Shown here piece after piece: positions 26,308 through 30,644 of a stretch of 64,000 nt of DNA; within the stretch, counting starts at the first letter, position 1, and each line of letters opens with the position of its first letter. Origin of the DNA: Marinitoga lauensis. GTDB taxonomy: Bacteria; Thermotogota; Thermotogae; Petrotogales; Petrotogaceae. The stretch spans positions 186,001 through 250,000 of the forward strand of contig NZ_QHLX01000001.1 of NCBI RefSeq assembly GCF_004135675.1. The letters are read 5' to 3'. Both the position numbers and the translations under genes were made by a program. The notes under the pieces were generated by a model. That model saw only the letters and a list, made by a program, of their open reading frames with translations, was not told the DNA's origin and made no database searches.

Positions 26308-27585
26308 TTAATTTTCTATTAATTTTCTCGCTTCAATTATTCCATGAGCTGTTGCATGTACAATACTTCTTGTTTGACCTGAACAATCTCCAATAAACTT
26401 TAAATTTTCAAATAAATTGTTATCTAATTTTTTTCCATAAAATTTAACTTCTACACCATATAAAAGATTTTCTTCATCAGCAACACCTGGAATAATTTTA
26501 TTTAAATTATCTATAAATTCTATTAATGATACCGATGTTTTACTTGGAAAAACAAGATTTAAATCACCTAAAACATATTCTTCAGAACTTAATGTTGGAA
26601 ACACTTTCCATAATTTTTTTGTTCTTTTTCCTTTTTTGAAATCACCGTATGTTTGTAATATAACTTTATTTCCACCAGCTAAAATATTAGATAATTTTGC
26701 AATATATGAACCATATCCATTTGGATCATTAAAAGGTTTTGTAAATGAATGTGTTACCAATATAGCAAAATTAGTATTAGTAGATTTTTGATCATGAATT
26801 GCATGTCCATTTACCGTAATAAAATCTGAATATTTTTCAGTAACTACATATCCTGATGGATTATTACAAAATGTTCTTACCAACTGACCGTTAGATGATT
26901 TGAATTTTACTTTAAATTCATACAATGCCTCATTTAACTCTTTAACAACAATATCAGGTAATTCAAATCTTACTCCCAAATCTACTTTTGTATTGGATAA
27001 TATAATATCTGGATATTTCTTTGTTAATGTATCTATTAATTTAAATCCACTTCTTCCTACAGCGATATACACCCTGTCAAATTCTTCTTTTATTTCCTCT
27101 CTTATTTCTCTATCTATATATTCAACAATTACTTTTTCATTTATCTCTATATCTTTAACTAATGAATTAAATTTAAAATGCACTCCTTTTCTAACAAATT
27201 CCTCATGTGCATTTTTCAAAAAAATCTTTAACTTATCTGTTCCAATATGAAAAAATTCTGATTCCACCAATTTAAATCCATTTATAAAAAATTTCTTTTG
27301 TAATTCTTCTAAATTTTCTCTTGTTCCTATTTCAGGCTCAGTTTCTGATAATTCAGAATAATAATCTACAATTTCTTTTTGCAACTGTTTATCAAACAAT
27401 ATTTCTTCTAAATCTCCACCCATTTCCGATGAAACAAATAATTTCCCATCTGCTCTGATACCGCTTATCGAAGAAGAAAAAATATCTTTGTTCATTTCAT
27501 ATACAATTACTTCATGTTTGTTTGAATCTACCTCTTTTAAGAATCCCACTGCTGCTGCACCAAAACCTATAATAGCTATTCTCAT
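26308..27585 (-). CDS. FAD-dependent oxidoreductase (uncharacterised NAD(P)/FAD family)
   Basis: A 425-residue flavoprotein with an N-terminal Rossmann dinucleotide motif (IAIIGFGAAAVGFLKEV), a central FDRVYIAVGRSGFKLIDTL typical of the second nucleotide contact, and a C-terminal FIGDCSGQTRSIVHATAHGIIEARK that binds the FAD pyrophosphate. This architecture is shared by a family of uncharacterised FAD-dependent dehydrogenases related to BaiN/YhiN-like and geranylgeranyl reductase-like proteins. Note that the first glycine motif is GFGAAA rather than GGGPAG. Substrate unknown. A terminator stands just upstream of its start, so it forms its own unit. Confidence 0.75.
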   Translation of the reverse strand: MRIAIIGFGAAAVGFLKEVDSNKHEVIVYEMNKDIFSSSISGIRADGKLFVSSEMGGDLEEILFDKQLQKEIVDYYSELSETEPEIGTRENLEELQKKFFINGFKLVESEFFHIGTDKLKIFLKNAHEEFVRKGVHFKFNSLVKDIEINEKVIVEYIDREIREEIKEEFDRVYIAVGRSGFKLIDTLTKKYPDIILSNTKVDLGVRFELPDIVVKELNEALYEFKVKFKSSNGQLVRTFCNNPSGYVVTEKYSDFITVNGHAIHDQKSTNTNFAILVTHSFTKPFNDPNGYGSYIAKLSNILAGGNKVILQTYGDFKKGKRTKKLWKVFPTLSSEEYVLGDLNLVFPSKTSVSLIEFIDNLNKIIPGVADEENLLYGVEVKFYGKKLDNNLFENLKFIGDCSGQTRSIVHATAHGIIEARKLIEN

Positions 27586-27633: not shown

Positions 27634-27813
27634 CTATTTTTTTATAGTATAATAGCATCTCTTTGGAGATACAACTTTTTCTTCTTTTTTTAATTTTTTT
27701 ATAGCTTTATCCACTTCCTTTTTGTCTAATCCTGCTTTTTCTGCAATTTCCGCTGATTTTAATGGTTCATTAGATTCAGATAAAACCTTTACTACTAATT
27801 CAATAGAATCCAT
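27634..27813 (-). CDS. 59-residue winged-helix protein
   Basis: A short gene with GGAGGGATTTTT before ATG 27813 and a terminator right after the stop. The protein begins MDSIELVVKVLSESNEPLKS and continues with a helix-turn-helix pattern, AEIAEKAGLDKKEVDKAIKK, then a basic LKKEEKVVSPKRCYYTIKK wing. This is the layout of a minimal winged-helix DNA-binding domain similar to those in small archaeal-type regulators or in MarR/Rrf2 relatives. Codon use and the clean RBS and terminator make it a real gene. Target unknown. Confidence 0.75.
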   Translation of the reverse strand: MDSIELVVKVLSESNEPLKSAEIAEKAGLDKKEVDKAIKKLKKEEKVVSPKRCYYTIKK

Positions 27814-27891
27814 AAAAATCCCTCCTCATTACACATTTAGTATTATATATTTTTACGCAATTTTTGTCAACTATAGTATTATTTTTTATAT

Positions 27892-28671
27892 CTATTTTAT
27901 TAAAAGCCCTATTTTATATACATTTTCTAATTTTTTCAACCCATGTGGCGATAATTCTGTTATTTCATAGGTTAAATCCATGCCTGCTTCATGTTGTCCT
28001 TTATGTTCACCATTTTTCCACAATTTTGAATGCGTTACATCATATACTACTCCATTTACCGCTACATATGCCTTATTTCCATTTTTTCCATTAAATTTCT
28101 TTAATTCTTTTAAATCTAAAGCTAAAATACCCACTGGATATACTTTATCTAATTTTTTTAATCCATGTGGCGATAATTCTGTTATTTCATAGGTTAAATC
28201 CATGCCTGCTTCATGTTGTCCTTTATGCTCACCATTCTTCCACAATTTTGAATGTGTTACATCATATACTATTCCATTCACTGCTACATATGCCTTATTT
28301 CCATTTTTTCCATTAAATTTCTTTAATTCTTCAAATGTAAATATAAGATATCCAACTGTTTCTGCCTTTTCTAATTTTCCTAATCCATGTGGCGATAATT
28401 CTGTTATTTCATAAGTTAAATCTTTTCCTGCTTCATATCCTTTATGTTTTCCGTTCTTCCAGTCTTTTAAATACGTCACATCATATACTATTCCATTTAC
28501 TGCAATCCAGGTGTCATTTCCATTTTTACCATTATTGTTTTTCAAAACTTCATATGGAATCAATGAATATTTAGGCTGAAATTTTTCTAAATTTAATTCT
28601 TCTATACTCAAAATTTCTGAAAAAGTGAACACACTTAAAACTACAAAAACAAATACAAAAAACTTTCTCAT
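27892..28671 (-). CDS. Secreted protein with three tandem cytochrome-b5-like heme domains
   Basis: A 259-residue exported protein: signal peptide at 1-19 (MRKFFVFVFVVLSVFTFSE), then three copies of a roughly 74-residue cytochrome b5-like heme-binding domain (PF00173 type). Each copy has the sequence pattern GKNGN..(W/Y)(I/V)AVNG(I/V)VYDVT, then WKNG(K/E)HKG, AG.DLTYEITELSPHG. Histidines in the HKG and SPHG segments are kept in all three and are the likely axial ligands. Copies 2 and 3 are nearly identical also at the DNA level (222-bp period). It follows a four-TM heme-type membrane protein by 12 bp, suggesting an electron-transfer pair outside the cytoplasm. Confidence 0.85.
   Translation of the reverse strand: MRKFFVFVFVVLSVFTFSEILSIEELNLEKFQPKYSLIPYEVLKNNNGKNGNDTWIAVNGIVYDVTYLKDWKNGKHKGYEAGKDLTYEITELSPHGLGKLEKAETVGYLIFTFEELKKFNGKNGNKAYVAVNGIVYDVTHSKLWKNGEHKGQHEAGMDLTYEITELSPHGLKKLDKVYPVGILALDLKELKKFNGKNGNKAYVAVNGVVYDVTHSKLWKNGEHKGQHEAGMDLTYEITELSPHGLKKLENVYKIGLLIK
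27917..28560. repeat. Three 222-bp tandem direct repeats within the b5-like gene
   Basis: The DNA period is 222 bp; the segment from about 27940 to 28110 recurs at about 28162-28332 with only scattered single-base differences, and a more diverged third copy follows at about 28384-28555. They encode the three heme domains. Confidence 0.85.
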
Positions 28672-28683
28672 AAAAATTCCTCC

Positions 28684-29088
28684 TTATAACAACCACGGAT
28701 CTATTAAATGAATCAATAACAATATAATTAAAATAAACCCAACATATCTATGCCATTTAATCCATGCTTTCTTAAATAATTTTATTTTTCTTAATAAATA
28801 AACCAGGAACATTAAAATAATTCCAAACCATAAAATTATCCCTGTATGTAAATAAAGATTTCCATTTAGTTCTATATAACCATGAATAATACCTGTAATA
28901 ATCAACAAAATACCGGACAATTTATGATATCTTTGTAGTATTTTAATAATACCAATAAAATATTTTTCAATTCTATAATTTTTATTTCTTATAAAAACTC
29001 TATATATTCTTCTCACTACAAATAATGAAAGGTTAAATGATAAAAAGAAGACATTTAACCAACCGAGTGATTCAATTATTTCCTGCAC
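28684..29088 (-). CDS. Four-TM bis-histidine heme membrane protein (ferric-reductase/cytochrome b561-like)
   Basis: A 134-residue membrane protein with four hydrophobic helices. Two helices each carry a His pair 14 residues apart: HKLSGILLIITGIIH and HRYVGFILIILLLIH. This spacing is the classic two-heme signature of ferric-reductase-like transmembrane and b561-type proteins. Its gene is directly upstream of the triple b5-like gene (12-bp gap), so the pair probably moves electrons across the membrane to a periplasmic acceptor. There is no flavin domain in the window. The electron donor and acceptor are unknown. Confidence 0.75.
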   Translation of the reverse strand: MQEIIESLGWLNVFFLSFNLSLFVVRRIYRVFIRNKNYRIEKYFIGIIKILQRYHKLSGILLIITGIIHGYIELNGNLYLHTGIILWFGIILMFLVYLLRKIKLFKKAWIKWHRYVGFILIILLLIHLIDPWLL

Positions 29089-29099
29089 TATTTATCACC

Positions 29100-29983
29100 T
29101 TACTTAATTAATCCTAATCCTTTAAGATAATTCTTTGCCACAATTTCCGGTTCTAATCCAACAACATCTACTAAATAATTAAGCCTAATAATAATATTTT
29201 CATTCAAATATAATGTCAATGGTTTTAGAATTTCTTTTATTTCAGGATATTTTTTTAAGATTTCTTCTCTTACTAAAACTGCAGGATTATATAAAGGAAA
29301 GAAATGTTTATCATCCTCTAAAACTATCAATTTATATTTAAGTAGCTTTGCGTCTGTAGAATAAACCATCGCTACATCTATTTTCCCAGAGGAAACCGCT
29401 TCATATGTAAGTCCTGCTTCCATAGTTTTCACATTTTTTTAGGAACATTCATATTATATGCTCTGGCCATTGCAAAAAAACCATCTGCTCTTTCATAAAA
29501 TTCCGGATTAACTCCAAAAATAACCTTATTACCTTCATTGACAAATTTTGCTAAATCCGATAAAGTTCTTAAATTATTTTTCTCTGCAAATTCACTTTTT
29601 ACAGCCATTGCATAAGTATCATTAAATGGTATCATATTTATCCAAACAATCTTATTTTTCTCATAATCAAGTTTTGATACTTCATTAAATAATTCATAAG
29701 GATTATAGATATTCTTTTTTTGTTTAAAATATGCAGCCCATGCAGTTCCTGTATATTCTGAATAAATATCCACCTGTCCATTCTCTATGGCAGCCCTTAG
29801 AGGAAATGATGTTAATCCAAATTGCTCCTCAACTTTAAATCCTGCATCTTTAAGAAGATAAGATATCATATTGGCAATAATATAACCTTCGGTAAACATT
29901 TTAGAACCAACTACAACAGTCTTTGCTGCAAATACATTAAAACTCATAATCACAATTAACATTACAATTCCAAATTTTTTCAT
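29100..29983 (-). CDS. Osmoprotectant (OpuC-type) ABC transporter substrate-binding protein, one frameshift
   Basis: Binds glycine betaine, choline or carnitine outside the cytoplasm. A signal peptide covers residues 1-19 (MKKFGIVMLIVIMSFNVFA); then KTVVVGSKMFTEGYIIANMISYLL and VDIYSEYTGTAWAAYF, which are family landmarks. The frame breaks at about 29439: NVPKKM-stop, whereas one added A in A6 gives NVPKKNVKTMEAGLTYEAVSSGKIDVAMVYSTDA. Repaired length 294 residues. I use ATG 29983, which follows AGGAGGGG, not the upstream ATG at 30007. It is last in a four-gene transporter unit. Confidence 0.88.
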
Positions 29984-29996
29984 AATAAAACCCCTC

Positions 29997-30644
29997 CTAA
30001 ATTTCATTTATTAAACCTTTTGAAACATATTTTTTCTCTAATGCACCTAAAAAAGCATCAACTCCAACCGCCAAGATAGAAACAGGAACAACTCCAGCAA
30101 ATATCATTGGTGCATTATAATGCGAAAGACCTGTAAATATAATTACTCCCAATCCTCCACCGCCTATAACAGATGCTACCGTAGCAGTTGCAATATTTAT
30201 TACAGCTGAATTTCTCAACCCAGAAAATATTGCTGGTAAAGCTATTGGTATTTCAATTTTATATAAAATATCCCTTTCACTCATTCCCATTCCTTTTGCA
30301 ACTTCATAAATGTTAGAATTTATACTTACTATACCAGAAGTTGTATTGAAAATAATAGGAACCAATCCATATAAAAACAAAGCTGTTATTGCAGTAATTT
30401 TTCCTATACCCATAAATAAAAATATTAAAGCTATTACAGCAACACTTGGTATAGATTGGGTTATTCCTGTTATAGATAATGCTAAGTTAGTATATTTTTT
30501 TCTTTTTTCACGAGTAATATAAATTCCAATAAAAATGCCTATTGCCGAAGATAAAAACCAGGATAAGAAAAATATAAATAAATGTTCTAAAGTTCTTTGA
30601 ATTACCATATCAAAATTACTAAACATATAAGAAAATATATACAT
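29997..30644 (-). CDS. Osmoprotectant ABC transporter permease (second)
   Basis: A 215-residue inner-membrane permease of the OpuBB/OpuCB type with five to six hydrophobic segments. The conserved cytoplasmic EAA loop reads VAKGMGMSERDILYKIEIPIALPAIFSGLRNSAV. It lies between the ATPase gene and the binding-protein gene with a 1-bp gap to the ATPase. Together with the permease at 31695 it would form a heterodimeric channel. Confidence 0.88.
   Translation of the reverse strand: MYIFSYMFSNFDMVIQRTLEHLFIFFLSWFLSSAIGIFIGIYITREKRKKYTNLALSITGITQSIPSVAVIALIFLFMGIGKITAITALFLYGLVPIIFNTTSGIVSINSNIYEVAKGMGMSERDILYKIEIPIALPAIFSGLRNSAVINIATATVASVIGGGGLGVIIFTGLSHYNAPMIFAGVVPVSILAVGVDAFLGALEKKYVSKGLINEI

Follow-up and report, generated by a model that had tools for sequence, protein, structure and literature searches.

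Two adjacent genes in the window, the 64,000-nucleotide stretch of Marinitoga lauensis DNA analyzed here, probably encode a small heme wire that takes electrons across the membrane to the outside. The first gene (positions 28684-29088, minus strand, GTG start) encodes a 134-residue membrane protein, a predicted bis-histidine diheme b-type cytochrome. Downstream in the same orientation, after a gap of 12 bases, comes the gene for a secreted 259-residue protein with three cytochrome-b5-like domains (positions 27892-28671, also minus strand), and a GGAGG-like site lies ahead of this b5 gene. We consider it likely that the pair carries out heme electron transfer across the membrane, where both heme binding and the direction of transfer are read from sequence.

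The membrane protein had been proposed in a first-pass annotation to contain two His-x13-His helices. This was confirmed by the residues of the ORF, by the helices of a structure model and by the family sequences. The complete set of histidines is H55, H69, H81, H113, and H127, and the model (pLDDT 89.4) contains four helices at residues 2-33, 38-73, 82-101, and 103-129. H55 and H69, with 13 residues between them, lie in the second helix, and H113 and H127, with the same spacing, lie in the fourth. The family was represented by a selected set of 70 distinct ORF sequences from fetched loci, taken as profile matches with E up to 1e-5. The four histidine positions were all spanned by 65 of the 70 (32 from Thermotogota and 33 others). 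H55, H69, H113, and H127 were kept in every one of these 65 sequences, and the spacing was exactly 13 in both helices. Beyond these four histidines, only residues G59, G70, and G83 attained 95% identity. H81 was missing in five sequences, four from genus g11 and one from genome G062. Mean Lys+Arg counts per loop in the family were 8.3 between helices 1 and 2, 5.5 between helices 3 and 4, and 0.6 between helices 2 and 3. The Lys+Arg-rich loops 1-2 and 3-4 should therefore be cytoplasmic according to the positive-inside rule, from which we infer that H55 and H113 are on the cytoplasmic side and H69 and H127 on the outer side.

In the secreted partner, PF00173 matched three stretches with 81.5 bits (cut-off 23.7), and the two candidate ligand histidines, in the GxH and SPH motifs, were both present in 3/3 domains; their role as ligands is suggested by the alignment. 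The three b5-like domains with both ligand histidines each, which had been read from the sequence earlier, were thus found, and the count of up to five hemes suggested at that time is compatible with the histidines of both predicted heme proteins. A hydrophobic, signal-peptide-like stretch was seen by eye at the N-terminus (28594-28671, minus strand, extent approximate), where the model shows a low-confidence helix at residues 2-14 and no lipobox was seen by eye. Domains 2 and 3 are near-identical (62/70 residues and 189/210 bases). The structure model of this protein had a pLDDT of 87.9, and its kin in the PDB were 6vz6 (E 4.7e-17) and 6nzx (E 1.1e-16), the latter being a small b5 from a Hadesarchaeon according to the portion of the report available to us (PMC7096707). 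The window protein is of the same b5 type as these small prokaryotic proteins, but they have a single domain, whereas it has three in tandem and is secreted. Elsewhere in the window's genome (2.6 Mb, 18 contigs, 87.9% complete), the cytochrome-b5 family gave no match.

The distribution of the two genes was examined in 101 same-class Thermotogota genomes. PF00173 matched in 36 and the membrane profile in 42; both matched in 30, b5 only in 6, the membrane profile only in 12, and neither in 53 (Fisher p 1.7e-10, relatedness ignored). A local b5 profile detected a b5 gene adjoining the membrane gene in G038, G044, G051, G080, and G083, all overlooked by PF00173, which brought the genomes with both genes to 35. 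As the local profile was run on fetched loci only, the Fisher test uses the unbiased PF00173 tally. The two genes were adjacent in 25 of the 35 genomes, apart in 9 (G013, G016, G025-G028, G032, G036, and G058, of which several are drafts with the genes on different contigs), and not assignable in G001, where contigs end. The adjacent cases include G051 and G100, in which the b5 gene is cut by a contig end. The gene pair is thus kept in other Thermotogota, where the first-pass annotation had suggested looking for it, and the observation is more than chance. With the local profile, all 30 genomes matching both families had two or more b5 domains, and the six b5-only genomes had a single one, which was joined to DUF2231 in G052, G055, G057, and G065 and stood alone in G068 and G069. 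The membrane gene was found without b5 in G010 and G011, which have a DOMON protein, and in G024, G029, G034, G037, and G062; among the last five, the loci of G024 and G062 only were read. One of six same-genus relatives, G002, matched neither gene. A wider membrane profile gave 43 matches over 103 genomes of the phylum. In G078, G093, and G095, which are counted among the adjacent cases, the membrane gene is broken next to an open multi-b5 gene, so that loss may start with the membrane part, or these breaks may be sequencing errors.

The b5 protein is not the only partner of the membrane protein. In G010 and G011, which belong to the window's family, a secreted DOMON protein directly follows the membrane gene in the position of the b5 gene (48.9 and 53.9 bits, cut-off 32.7). 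These were the only 2 of the 101 Thermotogota genomes with a DOMON match, and both were without a PF00173 match; the window's genome gave no DOMON match. A DOMON gene also adjoins the membrane gene, tail to tail, in 2/2 Halobacteroidaceae MAGs (45.4 and 34.5 bits). DOMON domains bind heme through a Met and a His, and one Met and one His were kept in 4/4 of these DOMONs by eye. No relevant PDB chain was returned for the DOMON query. In a tree of 66 rows, the Thermotogota, including G010 and G011, formed one branch of 33 rows (97/92). At least two gains or losses of the DOMON label are required by the branches with good support, in a tree whose details are weak because of few columns. That two unrelated heme-binding folds are combined with a single conserved diheme protein is our strongest argument for electron transfer by heme. 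There is good reason to regard the pair as a minimal module for b-heme electron transfer through the membrane, in which the outer heme domain can be exchanged. The exchange of DOMON and b5 separates the fixed element, the diheme wire, from the variable one, the outer heme carrier, and a swappable outer domain would offer a compact system for tests of heme electron transfer.

Beyond Thermotogota, the membrane gene recurs in other anaerobes. Six loci were obtained by scanning named genomes, in Thermosipho, Pseudothermotoga, Proteocatella sphenisci, Anaerotalea alkaliphila, and the two Halobacteroidaceae MAGs. Directly upstream of the membrane gene, both Proteocatella and Anaerotalea encode a b5 of one domain with a lipobox-like Cys. 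Among 247 relatives of Proteocatella (Bacillota), 55 matched the membrane profile. In the best 30 of these 55 loci, b5 adjoined the membrane gene in 13, Proteocatella included (directly upstream in 12, divergent in one), and neither b5 nor DOMON was found within about 1.5 kb in the other 17. All 14 distinct b5 proteins from outside Thermotogota were single-domain with both histidines, and a lipobox-like Cys was seen by eye. Multi-domain b5 chains were found only in Thermotogota among the genomes examined.

We compared the membrane protein with known families. Its scores were below the cut-offs of DUF4405 (PF14358; 23.0 bits, cut-off 26.7), the ferric reductase-like domain (PF01794; 12.9 bits, cut-off 28), and prokaryotic cytochrome b561 (PF01292; 12.2 bits, cut-off 30.1). 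At E up to 0.1, 7/15 family members matched DUF4405 and 5/15 matched PF01794, the best of the latter at 0.00055. A Foldseek search of the model against the PDB gave nothing below 0.001; the best match was a designed helix bundle (E 0.36), and NOX5 (E 1.3), a formate dehydrogenase subunit, b561, and b6 were among the weak, non-significant matches. As designed helix bundles top this list, fold matches were not taken as proof. A profile built from 20 membrane sequences matched no PDB chain up to E 10. The diheme core of ferric reductases, MsrQ, and NOX proteins is built of His-x13-His helices. The PF01794 domain of these proteins resembles the window protein in its two His-bearing helices and in the bis-His diheme core predicted for the latter, but the window protein falls below the cut-off, has four helices, and is without a fused FAD/NAD(P)H domain.

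DUF4405 (PF14358; arCOG04002) has four conserved membrane histidines, as does the window family. The accessible part of one report places DUF4405 proteins in the cytochrome b family and describes one fused to b5 in Thermococcus barophilus, for which a role in iron-dependent electron transfer was suggested (PMC5898192). In the passages available from another (PMC11334425), heme b is bound in vitro by one DUF4405 protein, the class is linked to flavinylated partners and has ferrosome proteins among its relatives, and the proteins are six-transmembrane, with their four histidines in an arrangement resembling that of MsrQ-like proteins. The window protein differs in having four predicted helices, not six, and the partner in its family is separate, secreted, and multi-b5 or DOMON, unlike in the T. 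barophilus fusion. In plants, CYBDOM proteins combine DOMON with cytochrome b561 and are reported, in the text accessible to us, to act in ferric reduction (PMC10784544, PMC10784552). They share with two Thermotogota genomes the pairing of a membrane cytochrome with an extracytoplasmic DOMON, but CYBDOM is one protein in plants, whereas here the two parts are encoded separately; the window has b5 in place of DOMON, and the PF01292 cut-off is missed. The prior work on DUF4405, the DUF4405-b5 fusion, and CYBDOM indicates that the general kind of system is already known. In the literature covered (titles, beginnings of abstracts, and passages, with little subscription content), we came across no account of such a pair in Thermotogota, nor of a four-helix family with fixed spacing, the exchange of b5 and DOMON, or the heme gap.

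The arrangement of the DUF4405 histidines bears on one alternative, in which the same heme mechanism would serve periplasmic protection or repair in an MsrQ-like manner, through a periplasmic reductase or the removal of oxygen or reactive species, and not the disposal of fermentation electrons. The MsrQ-like arrangement favors it, a small redox protein on the outside could serve repair, and the patchy spread (42/101) suits an accessory role. However, no constant repair enzyme was recognized by eye beside the pair in the loci read, and we regard this alternative as unlikely.

For electron transfer by a heme wire, the following path is proposed. The 134-residue protein would hold two hemes, one between H55 and H113 near the cytoplasm and one between H69 and H127 near the outside, and single electrons would cross the membrane via these two hemes. 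The secreted triple-b5 protein would take the electrons at the outer face and relay or shuttle them to a periplasmic acceptor, for which small ferric or sulfur compounds or a further redox protein of the periplasm would be the likeliest candidates. We suggest iron or sulfur as the acceptor only tentatively; the context for the outlet to metal, sulfur species or a periplasmic reductase raised in the first-pass annotation is indirect. Judging from the neighbors, the best guess for the donor would be cytoplasmic NAD(P)H or ferredoxin flavoenzymes, and the heme would presumably be scavenged.

In the window, the gene of an FAD-dependent oxidoreductase (positions 26308-27585, minus strand; PF21688, 56.2 bits, cut-off 27) lies 306 bp downstream of the b5 gene on the same strand, which contradicts the earlier statement that no flavin gene is nearby. 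This enzyme is a conceivable, putative electron donor, and an FAD-oxidoreductase-like gene was also seen by eye near b5 within the genus (L011, L012, L018, L023, and L050). The companion statement, that no c-type cytochrome gene is nearby, agrees with our results: only two window ORFs of at least 80 residues contain CxxCH, one motif each, and one of these ORFs is 2-oxoacid oxidoreductase-like by eye. Directly upstream of the pair lies an OpuAC-type substrate-binding protein gene (positions 29100-30007, minus strand) in two frames, 29100-29432 and 29429-30007, with PF04069 in both and the break near 29432. The gene is whole, in a single frame, in the relatives G003 and G005, and rnfC is likewise split in the window's genome (G000:C17:88512-89806). 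The frame break and the split rnfC make an assembly error likely.

Other redox genes adjoin the pair in relatives. The pair is divergent from an nqrB/rnfD-type gene in G050, G082, G091, and G095 (families confirmed for G050 only), as is the membrane gene alone in G062. In G064, of the same genus, the nqrB/rnfD-type gene is about 3.5 kb away with a sugar-transport cluster in between. A 2-oxoacid:ferredoxin oxidoreductase is directly upstream in G060 and G079 (families confirmed for G079), and a glutamate-synthase-like flavoprotein pair, which we take to be Nfn-like, follows on the same strand in G038, G044, and G093 (families confirmed for G038). The neighbors thus vary by lineage, and there is no constant donor. 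No ApbE or flavinylated partner was recognized by eye in the loci read. The genes facing the membrane-b5 pair in G050 (L045, 4801-8726), and also in L058, L015, L019, and L068, form a second Rnf/Nqr-type cluster. It is nqrBCDEF-like, with an NqrF-like subunit over the cut-off (314.5 bits); no RnfC/NqrA gene was recognized alongside by eye, and a full-length rnfC is elsewhere in G050, far from the pair. The lack of an rnfC partner in this cluster was considered as a clue to the donor and dropped, as rnfC was over the cut-off in 96/101 genomes. The Rnf of Thermotoga maritima is described, in the part of the report available, as a Na+ pump between ferredoxin and NAD (PMC7414866).

The supply of heme was examined with the same genomes. 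Ferrochelatase was found in 0/101 Thermotogota genomes by a search that matched 8/14 control genomes, and AhbD (TIGR04545) was over the cut-off in 0/101 and in 1/14 controls. ALAD was found in 4/101 genomes, G060 alone among b5 carriers, and in 11/14 controls. The window's genome gave 12 AhbD matches below the cut-off (best E 9.9e-32), but these were taken as other radical-SAM proteins, with G040 as a possible exception. In G040 (C56:21733-24821), ALAD has an AhbD-like radical-SAM gene on either side (355 and 232 bits, both below the cut-off), a possible tetrapyrrole cluster; this genome matched neither the b5 nor the membrane profile. Apparently, the window's lineage is unable to make heme, as judged from genes in a genome that is 88% complete. 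As no known heme route was found in the window's genome or the great majority of its kin, the heme would need to be taken up.

This heme gap could also be explained by heme capture, in which the multi-b5 protein would be a heme store or hemophore and the membrane protein would pass or reduce heme for uptake. Besides the absence of ferrochelatase (101/101) and ALAD (97/101) in Thermotogota, with none in the two Halobacteroidaceae MAGs either, it is favored by the several b5 domains, which would hold several hemes. However, ALAD was present in 38 of the 55 relatives of Proteocatella (G104) carrying the membrane gene, in 9 of those 13 in which b5 adjoins it, and in Anaerotalea, outside the 55-genome set, which has the membrane gene as well. 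This is at odds with a role in heme capture alone. By eye, the pair had no heme transporter gene beside it, and electron transfer is favored by the DOMON alternative and the invariant diheme geometry, so we consider heme capture very improbable. Still less credible is a decaying relic whose hemes stay unfilled without heme synthesis and whose genes are being lost: the membrane gene is broken in 3/42 Thermotogota matches and 23/108 Thermotogota b5 domain matches lack a ligand histidine, some of them cut or partial, but the four membrane histidines are kept despite an identity to the window protein of 22-67% across 19 aligned relatives and 41/44 Thermotogota b5 sequences, fragments included, keep at least one complete domain, which suggests selection.

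Thermotogota are generally portrayed as fermenters that lack cytochromes. A conserved heme relay would give them an extracytoplasmic electron outlet, which may bear on the reduction of Fe(III) or sulfur by some Thermotogota; as heme synthesis is apparently lacking, the relay would depend on heme from neighbors. In its most specific form, our proposal is a distinct class of diheme wires of about 130 residues and four helices, with b5 or DOMON as a plug-in and with scavenged heme, in fermenting Thermotogota without heme synthesis; the wire would be fed by ferredoxin or NAD(P)H enzymes (an Nqr-type complex in several genomes of genus g24) and would discharge electrons outside. We regard this full combination as rather doubtful.

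Some minor observations were made in these loci. A winged-helix-like ORF of 59 residues (27637-27816, minus strand) lies between the b5 and FAD genes, with Pfam signals below the cut-off (HTH_11, 21.2 bits; Rrf2, 19.2 bits), and a similar ORF is present in L018. In genus g25 (L004, L005, L006, and L008), b5 and a DUF2231 membrane domain are joined in one protein, as seen with Pfam for L004 and by eye for the other three. In G069 (L007) and G068 (L009), the lone b5 has 77 residues and overlaps a ferritin-like gene at its end (PF00210, 81.1 bits), which suggests b5-driven iron redox in ferritin.
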